From Deltaproteobacteria bacterium (lineage in GTDB: Bacteria > Myxococcota_A > Polyangia > Polyangiales > Polyangiaceae): DNA of 35,668 nt. Location: contig VGRJ01000040.1 in the NCBI GenBank assembly GCA_016875405.1, positions 1-35,668 of the forward strand. Direction: 5' to 3'. Below, one piece after another: positions 23,156 through 28,893 of this stretch (its first letter is position 1; each line of letters opens with the position of its first letter). The position numbers and the translations under genes were made by a program. The notes below the pieces were generated by a model. It ran no database searches and had not been told where the DNA came from. It saw only the letters and a list, made by a program, of their open reading frames with translations.

Positions 23156-23743
23156 TCAGGCGATGGGGCGCTCGCGACCCGCCCGGAGTCGAGCGAGGTT
23201 CTCGTGGTGCCGAGCGACGACGAACAGCGCAAGCGCACCGAGGAACACGACCTCCCCGCGTGAACGACCGACGCCCCAGCCCGCGACGGGGAGCATCGTC
23301 GCCGCGACCAGCGCCGCGAGCGAGACCACGCGGCGAGCCGCGAACACGACGCCGAACGCGAGGACGGCGAGGACGGTCGCAGCGGGCGCGAGGACGAGGC
23401 AGACCCCGAGGCTCGTCGCGACCCCCTTGCCTCCGCGAAACCGAAGCCATGGCGTGAACACGTGGCCGACGACGGCCGCCGCACCGGCGACGTGGAGCAC
23501 CCCGAGCGCGCTCTCCGACGAGAGCCCGCTCCGTGTCGCGAGGACGAGCGGCAACGCCCCCTTCAGCGCATCGAGTACGAGGACCAGGAGCCCGAGCCGC
23601 AGCCCCACCGTTCGCGCGACGTTCGCCGCCCCGATGTTGCCGCTCCCTCGGGCCTGGATGTCGACGCCCCGCGCCCGCGCGACGAGCCAGCCGAAGGGGA
23701 TCGACCCCGCGACGAAGGACACGACGACGAGGGTCACGCTCAC
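23156..23743 (-). CDS. plsY: Glycerol-3-phosphate acyltransferase PlsY
   Basis: A 195-residue integral membrane enzyme that transfers an acyl group from acyl-phosphate to glycerol 3-phosphate, the first step of phospholipid synthesis. The three family motifs are clear: GSIPFGWLVARARGVDI followed by GSGNIGAANVAR (motif 1), KGALPLVLA and GHVFTPWLRFRGGKGVATSL (motif 2), and HHENLARLRAGRERPIA near the end (motif 3). There are five to six hydrophobic helices. The start is GTG at 23743, with no ribosome-binding site but TAGACT eight bases upstream on the coding strand. The PP2C gene follows on the same strand. Confidence 0.96.
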   Translation of the reverse strand: MSVTLVVVSFVAGSIPFGWLVARARGVDIQARGSGNIGAANVARTVGLRLGLLVLVLDALKGALPLVLATRSGLSSESALGVLHVAGAAAVVGHVFTPWLRFRGGKGVATSLGVCLVLAPAATVLAVLAFGVVFAARRVVSLAALVAATMLPVAGWGVGRSRGEVVFLGALALFVVARHHENLARLRAGRERPIA

Positions 23744-23751
23744 GACGCCGA

Positions 23752-23757
23752 AGTCTA
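23752..23757 (-). promoter_or_regulatory. Putative -10 box (TAGACT) before plsY
   Basis: On the minus strand TAGACT ends eight bases before the GTG start at 23743. TCGACC lies 16 bases further upstream as a fair -35. It fits a leaderless plsY transcript. Confidence 0.45.
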
Positions 23758-23812
23758 GCCACCGTCTCGCGCGGGTCGAGCACTCGTAGCGGTGCGAGGC
23801 GCGAGTTCGCGC

Positions 23813-23818
23813 TATATC
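23813..23818 (+). promoter_or_regulatory. Possible -10 box (TATATC)
   Basis: TATATC is the only AT-rich hexamer between plsY and the FemAB-like gene. It would give a leader of about 30 bases that contains the GAGG ribosome-binding site at 23846-23849. Confidence 0.35.
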
Positions 23819-23856
23819 GATGGGGCGTCGCCGGGCGGCGCGTGCGAGGCGATGAC

Positions 23857-25008
23857 GTGAGCGCGGCGATGACGACGGTGCGAGTGCTCGGGGCGATGCG
23901 CGAGGTCGACGCCTCCGAGTGGAACCGCTGCACGCGCGGAGACCCCTTCGTGTCGCACGAGTTCTTGAGCGCGCTCGAGGACTCGGGCTCGGCCGTCCCG
24001 GAGCATGGCTGGCACGCGCGGCACCTCGTCGTCGAAGACGAGGTCGGCGTCGTCGCCGCGGCCCCCGCTTACCTGAAGACGCACTCCTACGGCGAGTACG
24101 TGTTCGACTGGGCGTGGGCGGACGCGTACCGTCGACTCGGGCTCTCGTACTACCCGAAGCTCCAGTGCTGCGTCCCGTTCACGCCGGCGACGGGCCCGCG
24201 CTTGCTCGTCCGAGAGGGGCTCGCCCGCGCGCACCATGAGGAGGTCCTCGTCGCCGCGTTGGTCGAGGTGGCACGGCGCGAGGGCGCCTCGTCCGTCCAC
24301 GTCACGTTCCCGACGTCCTCCGAGCGTGAGCGCGGCGCCGAGCTCGGCCTGCTCACCCGCTCGGGCCTGCAGTACCACTGGCACAACCGCGGCTTCGCGA
24401 GCTTCGACGACTTTCTCGGGACGCTGCTCGGGAGGAAGCGGCGCGTCCTCGCTCGCGAGCGACGTGACGCCAACGCGGCCGTCGCGATCGAGACGCTCCG
24501 TGGTGCCGACATCGGGACCGACGAATGGAACGCGTTCTACGGCTTCTACCGAGACACCATCGCGCGCAAATGGGGCCAAGCCTACTTGACGCGGGCGTTC
24601 TTCGAGACGCTCGGCGCCACGATGAGCGACCGGGTCGCGATGGTGGTCGCGCGACGCGACGGCGAGGTGGTGGCCGCGGCCCTCAACCTGATCGGACCGG
24701 ACGCGCTCTTCGGGCGCTACTGGGGCACGTCGGTCGAGGTCCCCTTCCTGCACTTCGAGCTTTGCTACTACCGAGCCATCGAGCTCGCGATCGAGCTTGG
24801 GCTCGTGCGCGTCGAGGCGGGCGCGCAGGGCGAGCACAAGCTTGCGCGAGGCTACGTCCCGGTCGAGACGCACAGCCTGCATCACATCCTCGACCCGCGG
24901 CTCGCGAGCGCCATCGGCTCGTTCGTCGAAGAGGAGAGGCTCGCGATCCTGCGCGACATGAGCGCGCTCGACGAGCTGACCCCGTACCGCGACCGTCGCG
25001 GCGGCTGA
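23857..25008 (+). CDS. FemAB/GNAT-like acyltransferase (DUF482 family)
   Basis: A 383-residue cytoplasmic protein of the FemAB-like DUF482 group, GNAT-fold enzymes thought to transfer acyl or aminoacyl groups, with substrate unknown. Typical family sequences are WNRCTRGDPFVSHEFLSALE, APAYLKTHSYGEYVFDWAWA, YYPKLQCCVPFTPATGPRLL, FYRDTIARKWGQAYLTRAFF, the LFGRYWGTSVEVPFLHFELC block, and VEAGAQGEHKLARGYVP with THSLHHILDPRL. The length is normal. GTG 23857 is preferred because GAGG lies seven bases upstream; ATG 23869 is in frame but has no such site. It is divergent from plsY. The glutaredoxin-like gene begins 57 bases downstream behind its own promoter box. Confidence 0.9.
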   Translation: MSAAMTTVRVLGAMREVDASEWNRCTRGDPFVSHEFLSALEDSGSAVPEHGWHARHLVVEDEVGVVAAAPAYLKTHSYGEYVFDWAWADAYRRLGLSYYPKLQCCVPFTPATGPRLLVREGLARAHHEEVLVAALVEVARREGASSVHVTFPTSSERERGAELGLLTRSGLQYHWHNRGFASFDDFLGTLLGRKRRVLARERRDANAAVAIETLRGADIGTDEWNAFYGFYRDTIARKWGQAYLTRAFFETLGATMSDRVAMVVARRDGEVVAAALNLIGPDALFGRYWGTSVEVPFLHFELCYYRAIELAIELGLVRVEAGAQGEHKLARGYVPVETHSLHHILDPRLASAIGSFVEEERLAILRDMSALDELTPYRDRRGG

Positions 25009-25065: not shown

Positions 25066-25671
25066 ATGAGCTTGCTTGATCGACTTGGCAAAAAGACCTT
25101 CGACGCAATCGACCGCGCGGCGCGCGCCGCCGAAACGCTGCGCAACCGCGTGGAGCCGATGCTCGAGGGGACGGCGCTTGGAGAGCGGCTGCGCGAGCGC
25201 GACCGACTCCATGACGTGAGCGATGTACCGACACCACCGAGCAACGTCTCACCGTTCGTGCCGCAGCCGACCGGCGACGCGACGCGCCCTCCCCTCGGCA
25301 AGCCCGAGCTCGCGGCGCAGCTCTTCGGTCGCGGCACCGATCCGTGGACCGCTCGAACGCGCCAGCTCCTCCGCGATCGAGGCATCGAGCTCGAGTGGAA
25401 CGATCTCGAGGCCGAAGGCGGAGTGCAGCTCGAGGCGCAGGTCGTCACCGAGACGAAGCACCCATCGGGCCCCTGGGTCTACCTGCGCGGTGAGTTCGTC
25501 GGTGGCTTTAACGCCGTGCACGAGCTCGATCGGCTCGGTCAGCTCGAGGTGATGACGCTGCCTCCGGAGGAGCGCCGGGATGGACGCGGTCGCACGCGCA
25601 TCGTCGTCGCGAAGCGCGGCGGCGACGAGCAGGCCGAGGGCGAGCGCGGCAACCCCGACGACCGCAAGTGA
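25066..25671 (+). CDS. Glutaredoxin-fold protein without cysteine
   Basis: A 201-residue cytoplasmic protein. Residues about 80-165 follow a glutaredoxin: QLFGRGTDPWTARTRQLLRD, GIELEWNDLEAEG, then PWVYLRGEFVGGFNAVHELD and LGQLE. In active glutaredoxins the first motif has CPxC or CPxS after the beta strand; here the Cys position is Asp (D92-P93), and the whole protein contains no cysteine at all. It therefore cannot do dithiol or monothiol redox chemistry. The GEFVGGFN glutathione-side loop is kept, so it might still bind glutathione, an iron-sulfur cofactor from a partner, or a protein. The N-terminal 60 residues are a helical Arg/Glu-rich extension. The exonuclease gene starts 16 bases after its stop. 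Confidence 0.82.
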   Translation: MSLLDRLGKKTFDAIDRAARAAETLRNRVEPMLEGTALGERLRERDRLHDVSDVPTPPSNVSPFVPQPTGDATRPPLGKPELAAQLFGRGTDPWTARTRQLLRDRGIELEWNDLEAEGGVQLEAQVVTETKHPSGPWVYLRGEFVGGFNAVHELDRLGQLEVMTLPPEERRDGRGRTRIVVAKRGGDEQAEGERGNPDDRK

Positions 25672-25687: not shown

Positions 25688-26584
25688 ATGCAGCTCCACC
25701 TCGTCGACGGGACCTACGAGCTCTTCCGCGCGCACTTCGGAGCGCCAGCCGGCGTCGACGCCTCGGGTCAAGAGGTCGGCGCGGTGCGCGGGCTCGTGCG
25801 CTCGCTCGCCGCGCTGCTCGCCGCACCTGCCACGACCCACGTCGCGGTCGCGTTCGACAGCGTCATCGAGTCCTTCCGCAATCGATTGTTCGCCGGCTAC
25901 AAGACCGGCGAGGGCTTGCCGCCGGAGCTCCTCCGACAGTTCGCGCTTGCCGAGCGGTGCACGGCGGCGCTCGGCGTGTCGGTCTTCGGCATGGTCGAGT
26001 TCGAGGCCGACGACGCGCTCGCCACGCTCGCCGCGCGACTCGTCGAGGCGCCCGAGCTCGAGCGCATTCTTCTCTGCTCGCCGGACAAGGACCTCGCGCA
26101 GTGCGTCTCGGGTGAGCGTGTGGTCGGCTTCGATCGCATGCGCGACAAGCTGCTCGACGAGGCCGGTGTGCGCGAGAAGTTTGGCGTCTCGCCCCGATCG
26201 ATCCCCGACTGGCTCGCGCTCGTCGGCGATGACGCCGACGGCATTCCTGGCCTGGCGCGCTGGGGCGCGAAGGGCGCGGCCGCAGTGCTTGCGCGCTACG
26301 AGAGGCTCGAGGCGATCCCCGACGACGCGAGCCTCTGGGACGTGAAGGTGCGCGGCGCGAAGGCGCTCGCGGATGTGCTCACGGCGCGGCGCGAGGACGC
26401 GATGCTCTTCCGCACGCTCGCGACCCTGCGCACCGACGTGCCGCTCGACGCCGACCTCTTTTCGCTCGCGTGGCGCGGACCGACGGACTTGCTCGGGCCG
26501 TTGCTCGACGAGCTCGGCATGAGCCGCCGCGTGCTCGACTCGCTCCTCGCGGCCGCCGATCGTTGCCTCAGAACCGGCGGGTGA
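25688..26584 (+). CDS. Stand-alone 5'-3' exonuclease (PolA N-terminal domain type)
   Basis: A 298-residue nuclease of the FEN/5'-3' exonuclease family, which removes RNA primers or flaps in DNA replication and repair. Family motifs are MQLHLVDGTYELFRAHFGAP, VAVAFDSVIESFRNRLFAGYK, EFEADDALATLAARLVE (metal-binding acidic cluster), LCSPDKDLAQCVSGERVVGF and the helix-hairpin-helix part WLALVGDDADGIPGLARWGA with KGAAAVLARY. Most acidic metal ligands are present, so it should be active. The polymerase domains of PolA are absent, so this is a separate protein such as an ExoIX-like enzyme. ATG 25688 gives the canonical start. It sits between the glutaredoxin-like and flavin-reductase-like genes, with gaps of 16 and 13 bases. 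Confidence 0.93.
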   Translation: MQLHLVDGTYELFRAHFGAPAGVDASGQEVGAVRGLVRSLAALLAAPATTHVAVAFDSVIESFRNRLFAGYKTGEGLPPELLRQFALAERCTAALGVSVFGMVEFEADDALATLAARLVEAPELERILLCSPDKDLAQCVSGERVVGFDRMRDKLLDEAGVREKFGVSPRSIPDWLALVGDDADGIPGLARWGAKGAAAVLARYERLEAIPDDASLWDVKVRGAKALADVLTARREDAMLFRTLATLRTDVPLDADLFSLAWRGPTDLLGPLLDELGMSRRVLDSLLAAADRCLRTGG

Positions 26585-26597
26585 CTAACGGCATCTC

Positions 26598-27200
26598 ATG
26601 CGCATCGATCCAGGCGAGCACGAGCCCCTCCGCGTCTACCATTTGATGACGAGCGTGATCGTGCCGCGCCCGATCGCCTGGGTCTCGACCATCTCCCGCG
26701 ATGGTGTACCGAACCTCGCCCCGTTCAGCTTCTTCAGCGGGCTCACCGCGACACCGCCGCTCGTGACGATCGCAGCCGGCCGACGGCGCGGCGCGCGCAA
26801 GGACACGACGAACAACGCGTCGGCGACGCGCGAGCTCGTCATCAACGTCGTCACCGAAGCGTTGCTCGAGCCGATGGTGCAGACGAGCGGCGAGTTCCCG
26901 CCCGAGGTCGACGAGATCTCGCTCGCGAAGCTGACGCCGCTCCCAAGCGTGAAGGTGCGGCCGCCACGGATCGCCGAGTCGCCGATCCAGCTCGAGTGTC
27001 GCACCCGCGAGATCCTCGAGATTTCACCTGGGATCGTGGATCTCATCGTGGCCGAGATCGTGCTCGTGCACGTCGACGACGCGATCGAGGTCGGTGCGGA
27101 TCTGTCGATCGCGACCGAGAGCATCCGCCCGCTCGCGCGACTCGGAGGTCCCAATTACACGACGCTCGGATCGATCAAGAAGGTGGAGCGCCCCACCTGA
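26598..27200 (+). CDS. Flavin reductase-like (FMN-binding split-barrel) protein
   Basis: A 200-residue cytoplasmic protein of the flavin-reductase-like split-barrel family, which binds FMN or FAD. Signatures are YHLMTSVIVPRPIAWVSTIS, GVPNLAPFSFFSGLTATPPL, the KDTTNNASATRELVINVVTE block, and a C-terminal PLARLGGPNYTTLGSIKKVE typical of the DIM6/NTAB group. Members reduce flavin or act as flavoprotein oxidoreductases; the substrate here is unknown. The start is 13 bases after the exonuclease stop, so the three plus-strand genes from 25066 can form an operon. It converges on the Cys-rich lipoprotein gene with 72 bases between stops, in which I see no strong terminator. Confidence 0.92.
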   Translation: MRIDPGEHEPLRVYHLMTSVIVPRPIAWVSTISRDGVPNLAPFSFFSGLTATPPLVTIAAGRRRGARKDTTNNASATRELVINVVTEALLEPMVQTSGEFPPEVDEISLAKLTPLPSVKVRPPRIAESPIQLECRTREILEISPGIVDLIVAEIVLVHVDDAIEVGADLSIATESIRPLARLGGPNYTTLGSIKKVERPT

Positions 27201-27272: not shown

Positions 27273-28592
27273 TCAGGGCTTCTGCTTGTCGGCGACGCCG
27301 TACTCGGCGCAGCCCCAGGCCTGGATGAAGAGCTCCCAGTCCCACTCGAAGATCGTGCCCTTCTCGCCGCGACGGATCGACCACTTGCCGCCGTTCGTGA
27401 GCGACAGCTGCATGTCGAGCGGGATGACCTGCTGCGCGTTGAAGAGGTGATCGTCACCGTTCAGTCCGATGGAGCCCGAGATTACTGGGCCGAGCGCGCC
27501 GACGGTCATCAGGATCCAGCCCGCGTCGCCCGGCACGATGCCGCCGATCATGCCTGCGGCGCCCGAGAGGGAGTCGACCAGCTTCTGGTAGGTGGACGTG
27601 TCGTCCTGCTCGATGCAGTCGTAGGTGAGCTGCAGGTTGCCGTTCGGCGTCTTGGGGCCCTTCTGGCCCCAGATCACGCCCGCCTCGAGCGAGTAGGCGA
27701 ACTCCTTGCCGCTGCCGAGCCCCGGCGTCGGCGGCAGCAGGCGGACCTCGCCGCCGTTGCCGGACTCGGCCTGAATGACGCAGAAAATCTCGTCCTTCTC
27801 GTCCGGCCACGGGTCATCCGGGTTGTGGACCTTCACCTTCGCGACGCCCACGCGAAGGAGCGGTGCGCCGCACTCGAGCGTGCCGCCCGGCGGGTCGGCG
27901 TCCCCGAAGGGCTGCGTCGGCAGGTTTTGCGGGTCGAGGACGGGGAACTTCGAGCGGAAGTCCTTCATCGAGGCGAGTCCGGCGCGCGCGAGACCACCAC
28001 GGATCGCGTCAGAGGCGTCGCGGTTCTTCGCGAACACCTCGCGAAGCGCGGGCACGAGCGGGTGCTCGCCGCTCCGCGCCTCGCTGTCGAGGGCCGCCGC
28101 CATCATGCGAACGCCCGGCCCGGCCTCGGCGATCGTGTTCTCGAGGCGCGCGAGGATTTCCGCCTTCGAGAGCTGCTTCATCTTCGGGATGTCGAGCGAC
28201 GCGATGTGGGGCGGGTTCGGCTTCGGGATGAATGCGTTGTCGCACGACGGCGCGAGCAGGCACGGCTCGCAGATGCCACAGTCTTTCTCGCAGGTGTGGC
28301 AGTTTTCGTCGTCGGCGCAGGTATTGTCACCGCAAGGCTCGGGCGGGAGACCCGTGGAGCTCGACGAGGTGCCGGCCCCACCGCTGCAATCGCAGACCCC
28401 GAAGCCGGACCCGTCCTCGAGGCAGATCTGCAAGCCTTCGGTCCCGCCGAAGCACGGGCAGACCGTCTGATGACCGGGGACGCATGCCGACGCGCCCGAT
28501 GTTGACGACGCCGTCGAGGTTTCGCCGGCGGCGCAGGCCGCGAACACACCCGCAACAAGTACGAGAGCCGGAAGGAGCATGCGCATTCCCAT
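27273..28592 (-). CDS. Cys-rich lipoprotein, unknown function
   Basis: Predicted 439-residue lipoprotein. ATG 28592 has GAGG eight bases upstream, and the product then begins MGMRMLLPALVLVAGVFAAC, a signal peptide with Cys20 as likely lipid site. Next comes a Thr/Ser spacer, then CVPGHQTVCPCFGGTEGLQI and CLEDGSGFGVCDC, a module often seen in Polyangiales surface proteins. After a Ser/Gly tether comes a second module, CGDNTCADDENCHTCEKDCG. The remaining 300 residues are a larger domain with LLPPTPGLGSGKEFAYSLEA and KWSIRRGEKGTIFEWDWELF; I do not recognise it. The role may be recognition or binding at the cell surface. The 301 bases upstream hold its likely promoter. Confidence 0.82.
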   Translation of the reverse strand: MGMRMLLPALVLVAGVFAACAAGETSTASSTSGASACVPGHQTVCPCFGGTEGLQICLEDGSGFGVCDCSGGAGTSSSSTGLPPEPCGDNTCADDENCHTCEKDCGICEPCLLAPSCDNAFIPKPNPPHIASLDIPKMKQLSKAEILARLENTIAEAGPGVRMMAAALDSEARSGEHPLVPALREVFAKNRDASDAIRGGLARAGLASMKDFRSKFPVLDPQNLPTQPFGDADPPGGTLECGAPLLRVGVAKVKVHNPDDPWPDEKDEIFCVIQAESGNGGEVRLLPPTPGLGSGKEFAYSLEAGVIWGQKGPKTPNGNLQLTYDCIEQDDTSTYQKLVDSLSGAAGMIGGIVPGDAGWILMTVGALGPVISGSIGLNGDDHLFNAQQVIPLDMQLSLTNGGKWSIRRGEKGTIFEWDWELFIQAWGCAEYGVADKQKP

Positions 28593-28893
28593 GAAATCGA
28601 CCTCTATCATGCGAAGGAACAATACGAGCGGTCTTCACTGCGGGGGCGCGGGGGAGCGCTCCAACCGCAATTTAAGCAGCAATTGTGCCGCGGCCGAAGC
28701 GGAAGCGGCGACGCGCACCGGAGCGATGCGCGCGAGCCAGACATTTCCCCTGATTCCGTGATCTGGGAGGCGCTCCTCACGCGCGCTCGCCGGCGCTTCC
28801 GACGAGGCCGGATGATTCTTCTCTCGCCGGGATTGGATCAAGCCTTGTCCATGCCGACCGCCTCACCTCGGCGGGGGCTGTGCCGCGCCGAGA
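28593..28893. other. 301-base gap upstream of the Cys-rich lipoprotein gene
   Basis: No gene is supported here. The most striking part is an AT-rich island at about 28667-28686 containing CAATT and AATTG in inverted orientation eight bases apart, in otherwise very GC-rich DNA. It lies about 80 bases upstream of ATG 28592 and could be a promoter or operator for that gene. No -35/-10 pair is convincing. Confidence 0.4.

Follow-up and report, generated by a model that had tools for sequence, protein, structure and literature searches.

Recurrent replacement of the catalytic cysteine by aspartate in a glutaredoxin-like family known here from one bacterial class

The window, by which we mean the whole stretch of 35,668 nucleotides that was analysed, carries a glutaredoxin-like gene in the order FemAB-Grx-exonuclease-flavin reductase. 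The features on which the analysis rests are the following.

23533 to 25008, plus strand: upstream ORF encoding a FemAB-like protein, with PF04339 over residues 122-486 (Pfam); the true start probably lies inside the ORF.
25066 to 25671, plus strand: glutaredoxin-like protein of 201 aa, with no cysteine (ORF translation and family alignments).
25066 to 25272, plus strand: N-terminal part, residues 1-69, made of helices 3-33 and 37-48 and a Pro-rich linker (model, same-locus relatives and amphipathic moment).
25303 to 25560, plus strand: Grx domain, about residues 80-165 (alignment, AlphaFold2 model and Foldseek).
25339 to 25341, plus strand: GAT codon of Asp92, which replaces the catalytic Cys (alignment with solved Grx).
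25459 to 25461, plus strand: His132, in a column that is Gln in 31/34 Cys members of the family and His in 4/6 Asp members (family alignment).
25688 to 26584, plus strand: stand-alone 5'-3' exonuclease with PF02739 and PF01367 (Pfam); the start, at about 25688, was set by comparison with relatives.
26598 to 27200, plus strand: flavin-reductase-like protein with PF01613 (Pfam).

Asp92 lies within the stretch LFGRGTDPWT of the protein, and the motif GEFVGGFN occupies residues 142-149. Profile searches place the protein below the cut-offs for glutaredoxins, with E=0.0054 and 17.4 bits for PF00462 (curated cut-off 22.9) and E=7.8e-6 and 26.1 bits for TIGR02181 (cut-off 90); the relatives at loci L025 and L095 pass the PF00462 cut-off. 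We modelled the protein with AlphaFold2 from an input alignment of four full-length sequences, its own and those of three relatives. Residues 81-170 were modelled with a block-mean pLDDT of 83-94 and show the order of elements expected of a glutaredoxin (strand 84-88, helix 93-104, strand 109-113, helix 119-130, strands 137-140 and 143-146, helix 148-156), with Asp92 directly preceding helix 93-104. The N-terminal helices 3-33 and 37-48 were modelled at pLDDT 65-77 and the linker and tail below 50, and the overall pTM is just 0.50. Foldseek searches with this model returned solved glutaredoxins at the top ranks (probability 1.00, rmsd 0.9-1.4 Å for the top six), the matches including human GLRX2 and holo GrxC1. 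The assignment to the glutaredoxins is firm because of the relatives and the structure, the family-profile scores alone being weak.

Aligned with the sequences of solved glutaredoxins, Asp92 falls in the column of the catalytic Cys, so that Asp stands where helix 1 of a glutaredoxin would begin with its nucleophilic Cys. The Lys/Arg expected three residues ahead of the active residue, a rule taken from an excerpt of PMC7351949, is present as Arg89, and alignment identifies the Pro before strand 3 and the GG motif as Pro136 and Gly146-Gly147; the TVP motif is cut down to its bare Pro (SGP). Neither the CGFS motif nor the five-residue loop by which the excerpted text of PMC7351949 defines class II is found in the alignment. 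The Asp92 site cannot carry out glutaredoxin thiol chemistry. A reading of the window from its sequence only had described a kept Grx core and GEFVGGFN loop, a catalytic Cys changed to Asp and a protein without any Cys, and had proposed structure prediction as a check; translation, alignment, Foldseek and a model that is confident over the Grx fold all bear it out.

Ahead of the domain, the N-terminal helix is strongly amphipathic, the moment of residues 2-33 being reached by none of 1000 shuffles; for four relatives the N-terminal moment was reached by 11 to 125 of 1000. Two genomes, G001 and G004, encode this N-terminal segment as a stand-alone protein of 81 and 83 aa (L023:1462-1707, minus strand, and L003:1501-1752, plus strand), with the Grx domain absent and the short gene in the position of the window gene, between FemAB and exonuclease. 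Pfam gave no match to either short protein up to E=1, and against the 75 N-terminal residues of the window protein it gave a cecropin match alone, far below its cut-off. A full-length Asp copy lies elsewhere in G001, on a 5.8 kb contig that resembles two other contigs of G001 in GC, although the MAG may be contaminated. The Asp members at L097 and L098 are without the N-terminal segment. The architecture thus runs from an amphipathic helical segment at the N-terminus through a flexible linker to a single-Cys Grx domain (x-P-W-S/T), after which comes a conserved tail.

Whole-genome profile searches, with profiles grown stepwise, found 40 distinct relatives with E below 1e-30 for the first profile, one per genome, in 40 of the 317 genomes of the class, and a second profile returned the identical 40 genomes at E<=1e-18. 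With so many genomes encoding a relative, chance is no concern. Among 377 genomes sampled across the phylum, 12 gave a match at E<=1e-14, every one belonging to the class of the window and none outside it. Beyond the phylum, coverage consisted of one scan of named genome contigs, with a pattern that spanned the N-terminus alone; it added two full-length relatives to that of G001, all in MAGs labelled Polyangiaceae or Polyangia. On these searches the family is known here only from one bacterial class. Within f1, the taxonomic family of the window, 12 genomes have a Grx relative.

Across the 40 family members the active-site residue is Cys in 34, Asp in six and anything else in none. The Asp members are those of the window, G001 (L002/L026), G133 (L027/L031, from another genus), G234 (L095, f22), G255 (L097, f24) and G315 (L098, f32). 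Asp is encoded by GAT in all six, Cys by TGC (26) or TGT (8), and passage from a Cys codon to an Asp codon takes two base changes, with no single-base route. That only Cys or Asp occurs (34:6:0) despite this barrier points to a need for a negative charge or a ligand at the position. As a control, 33 Grx-like ORFs from the fetched loci that are not family members were aligned with MAFFT and have Cys in 32, Asn in one and Asp in none; the share of Asp among Cys replacements implied by BLOSUM62 is 3.6%, a figure to which we give little weight. At L018:1149-1743 (plus strand) a Grx-like protein outside the family has Asn for the catalytic Cys (GMAQNPYP).

Apart from L034, L037 and L088, the active-site Cys is the sole Cys of domain and tail in the Cys members (31 of 34); since this is usual, the family is of a single-thiol kind and its Asp members are merely without that thiol. 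Total absence of Cys is not common to all six, as three carry a single Cys at another place in the domain or tail. The minus-strand ORF of L088 encodes a member with a C-terminal extension that holds six further Cys, possibly a fused Fe-S domain. Around the site, all 40 members have Ser or Thr at +3, 37 of 40 have Trp at +2, and the active-site Pro is kept in 27/34 Cys and 5/6 Asp members. Gly at +4 is found in 33/34 Cys members vs 2/6 Asp members, and in the column four residues ahead of the conserved Pro, 31/34 Cys members have Gln and 4/6 Asp members have His, a residue that no Cys member has there. These shifts at the His/Gln column and at Gly+4 could reflect a single event, because L097/L098 may have a common origin with the genus of the window. 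In L027 a Pro occupies the otherwise conserved Lys/Arg position.

To count the Cys/Asp changes we built trees with the trait column masked. The best tree of all 40 rows requires three changes at the fewest, and grouping all Asp rows into one clade is rejected (p-AU 0.0003). When five rows were left out (L037, L088, L038, L039, L093; four of them long or odd and one a near-copy), the resulting 35-row tree still gives three changes and a p-AU of 0.0037 for a single Asp clade, and its starred branches force just one change. Joining the window clade and L095 as one clade is rejected (p=0.0013); joining the five Asp rows other than L095 is not (p=0.20), nor is joining L095 with L097 and L098 (p=0.14). 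With these two groupings left standing, three changes are not a firm minimum; the trees make two or more independent changes secure, with three as the best estimate. Trees differ on whether the Cys member L025 groups within the Asp rows closest to the window or outside them. Asp is retained in relatives that match the window domain at 80/125 and 67/124 positions, that is, over roughly 54-64% identity.

The genomic neighbourhood of the family in f22 and f23 suggests a link there to an Fe-S enzyme system. In these two groups 19 of 25 Grx loci contain, within the fetched locus, another Grx-like gene, a protein of ~600 aa with conserved Cys, or both; in G252 and G226 the ~600 aa protein lies on the same contig within 8 kb of the family member, and in G223, G225, G248 and G249 the locus has neither gene. 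In the three loci scanned with Pfam the next gene encodes an activase with BcrAD_BadFG and DUF2229, and the Asp member L095 lies in a locus of the f22/f23 kind. The second Grx-like protein, of 154-162 aa, adjoins the f22 family member as a tandem gene (L129:4876-5337, minus strand, and L132:6069-6554, minus strand); it is without an active-site Cys (HMDKTRRD-type) and has a Cys ahead of its GG motif. The activase and the ~600 aa protein, which is dehydratase-like, form an operon-like pair (L129:5351-9470, L132:6584-10972, L134:71-4673), the latter protein having no Pfam family above cut-off. At L089:1069-2277 (minus strand) and at L099 a Grx domain with a CPYA site is fused to a NifU-like domain beside a homologue of the ~600 aa protein, Pfam having been run on L089 only.

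This neighbourhood favours the main rival to a non-redox binding role, namely a metal or [2Fe-2S] site with the active residue and glutathione as ligands, in which Asp would replace Cys as an oxygen ligand. The Asp member in an activase-type locus, the Grx-NifU proteins of two other genomes (NifU by Pfam in L089), the presence of GLRX2 and holo GrxC1 among the Foldseek matches, and the Asp-ligated cluster of NsrR described in an excerpt of PMC5411485 would all fit such a site. However, the activase and ~600 aa homologue of the window genome lie elsewhere, with no Grx beside them, and the ~600 aa protein is far commoner than the Grx family, occurring in 218 of the 317 class genomes, a frequency that makes co-occurrence of the two uninformative. 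The active-site Pro of most members might interfere with Fe-S assembly, to judge from the part of PMC11724882 drawn on here, and the loop between Lys/Arg and active site that marks class II in the PMC7351949 excerpt is absent. On balance we regard a metal or Fe-S site as unlikely. Slightly less likely again is that Asp and Cys are functionally interchangeable, each acting as an anionic ligand and not as a redox nucleophile, for example in a glutathione-assisted metal or Fe-S site that serves the dehydratase-activase system; a thiol-free glutaredoxin would then have been made repeatedly with its function kept. The genes of L097 and L098 come after one that reads as an aldo/keto-reductase-like gene by sequence.

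Another reading takes the window protein for an adaptor dedicated to the FemAB-like protein or to the exonuclease. The sequence-only reading had named an exonuclease and a flavin-reductase-like protein as likely co-transcribed with the gene, and its gene order is right; this order and the short gaps favour an adaptor. FemAB also adjoins the gene in L025, where FemAB-Grx is followed by other genes and then by exonuclease and flavin reductase, and in L027, where FemAB is divergent from the Grx gene. Yet the special tie to the exonuclease that had been proposed did not hold up. Exonuclease homologues occur in 73 of the 108 genomes of the window's taxonomic family at E<=1e-50, mostly without any Grx relative, against Grx in 12; the order FemAB-Grx-exonuclease was seen only in the window genus (G000, G001 and G004); and G001 and G004 keep it minus the Grx domain, which must be dispensable at this locus in both, since it has been lost there. 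Among the 30 loci returned, most of which span ~1.5 kb each side, the exonuclease has FemAB and the Grx gene, whole or reduced to its N-terminal segment, as neighbours in the window, G001 and G004 only. We reject a role as exonuclease scaffold, the link being local to the window genus, and consider a dedicated adaptor in general improbable. Downstream of the flavin reductase the window has a Cys-rich, lipoprotein-like ORF (27273-28622, minus strand), and an ORF of related appearance stands in the matching place in L025 (L025:9530-10528, minus strand).

Loss of function, in which the copy has lost its Cys and drifts, is improbable to much the same degree. It could be argued from the nearest same-locus relative, L025, which has Cys, from the two genus-mates that lack the Grx domain at the window locus, and from the Gly at +4 that most Asp members have given up. 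Against it, Asp persists over the divergence given above and has been the outcome repeatedly. Of the 31 columns with a conservation of 85% or more among the Cys members, the Asp members also keep most (window 24, L027 26, L002 24, L095 29, L097 25, L098 26), the Cys members themselves keeping 16-31. The window protein retains Arg at the conserved Lys position as well as the Pro and GG. By NG86, five pairs with an Asp member in them have dN/dS values of 0.33-0.45, and two pairs made up of Cys members alone have 0.41 and 0.12; these values are rough, dS being high in some pairs, and all lie below 1, in line with purifying selection. Because Asp recurs, conserved columns are kept and dN/dS is below 1, simple decay of the Asp copies appears unlikely. 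The comparison of relatives suggests instead a selected shift from Cys to Asp, toward a job that does without sulfur chemistry. The sequence-only reading had favoured retention of the fold without redox chemistry, and the occurrence of Asp in distant relatives, its repeated origin and the 24-29 of 31 columns kept agree with it. It had also held that orthologues with the normal Cys would point to decay; such orthologues exist, the same-locus L025 among them, yet their existence does not imply decay.

It is very improbable that the Grx fold has gained a hydrolytic or transferase site in which Asp92 acts together with His132 as nucleophile or base: His stands at the 132 column in 4/6 Asp and 0/34 Cys members, but L027 and L095 pair Asp with Gln, and both groups with His may descend from one ancestor (p=0.20 for a clade of the five Asp rows).

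The reading we prefer, and to which we would give an even chance, is that the window protein is a pseudo-glutaredoxin, its fold kept under selection and its catalytic residue lost, in which a carboxylate has taken the place of the thiolate and which has a non-redox binding role. The main job of the family would then need no thiol-disulfide exchange: a negatively charged group where helix 1 begins, mostly a thiolate and here a carboxylate, would keep glutathione or a partner protein bound in the groove of the fold, of which Arg89, Pro136 and Gly146-147 are left without the thiol. Asp would be a fixed mimic of the thiolate, proof against oxidation and glutathionylation, and the N-terminal helix might tether the domain to a membrane or to a partner. 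GSH-S_ATP and GCS2 were matched in all 12 genomes checked for glutathione synthesis, including the six with an Asp member, and glutathione is therefore probably available to these hosts. We infer the binding or scaffold role, since no neighbour is common to all Asp members among the loci compared. Against the pseudo-glutaredoxin reading stand the Cys kept in L025, the insecure count of three changes, the Pro of L027 at the Lys/Arg position, the reduction of TVP to SGP in the window and the loss of the Grx domain at this locus in G001 and G004.

Several known systems resemble this protein in part. Class I (CxxC/S) glutaredoxins such as human GLRX2, plant GrxS12/GrxC5 and bacterial Grx3 are alike in fold, in the place of the active site, in the short loop after Lys/Arg, and in the Pro and GG; the window protein differs from them in having Asp for Cys, no resolving Cys, an N-terminal helical extension, a C-terminal tail and SGP in place of TVP. 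With the CGFS (class II) Fe-S glutaredoxins the Cys relatives in the family share a single-thiol active site, but the family is without CGFS and the five-residue loop and has Pro after the active residue, and the window has Asp. Plant class III (CC-type, ROXY) glutaredoxins likewise use the fold without redox chemistry, and ROXY9 with a mutated catalytic Cys still regulates its targets, according to an excerpt of PMC11887855; they differ in being plant-specific, in keeping the native Cys and in binding TGA factors, and no test of this analysis relates them to the window protein. TRX z, which has a Trx fold, likewise plays a structural role once its thiol is gone, the C106S form complementing in the text excerpted from PMC4036507, although its thiol loss was engineered and that of the window protein is natural. 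A literature search, beyond whose reach most subscription journals lay, found no description of a natural Cys-to-Asp glutaredoxin among the titles and abstract openings listed.

The recurrence of the same change within one family adds interest beyond the observation of a single copy. A catalytic Cys replaced more than once, and by Asp alone, amounts to a natural experiment in which the swap separates the sulfur chemistry of a glutaredoxin from charge, ligation or binding, and in which Cys/Asp pairs of close relatives are open to direct comparison.
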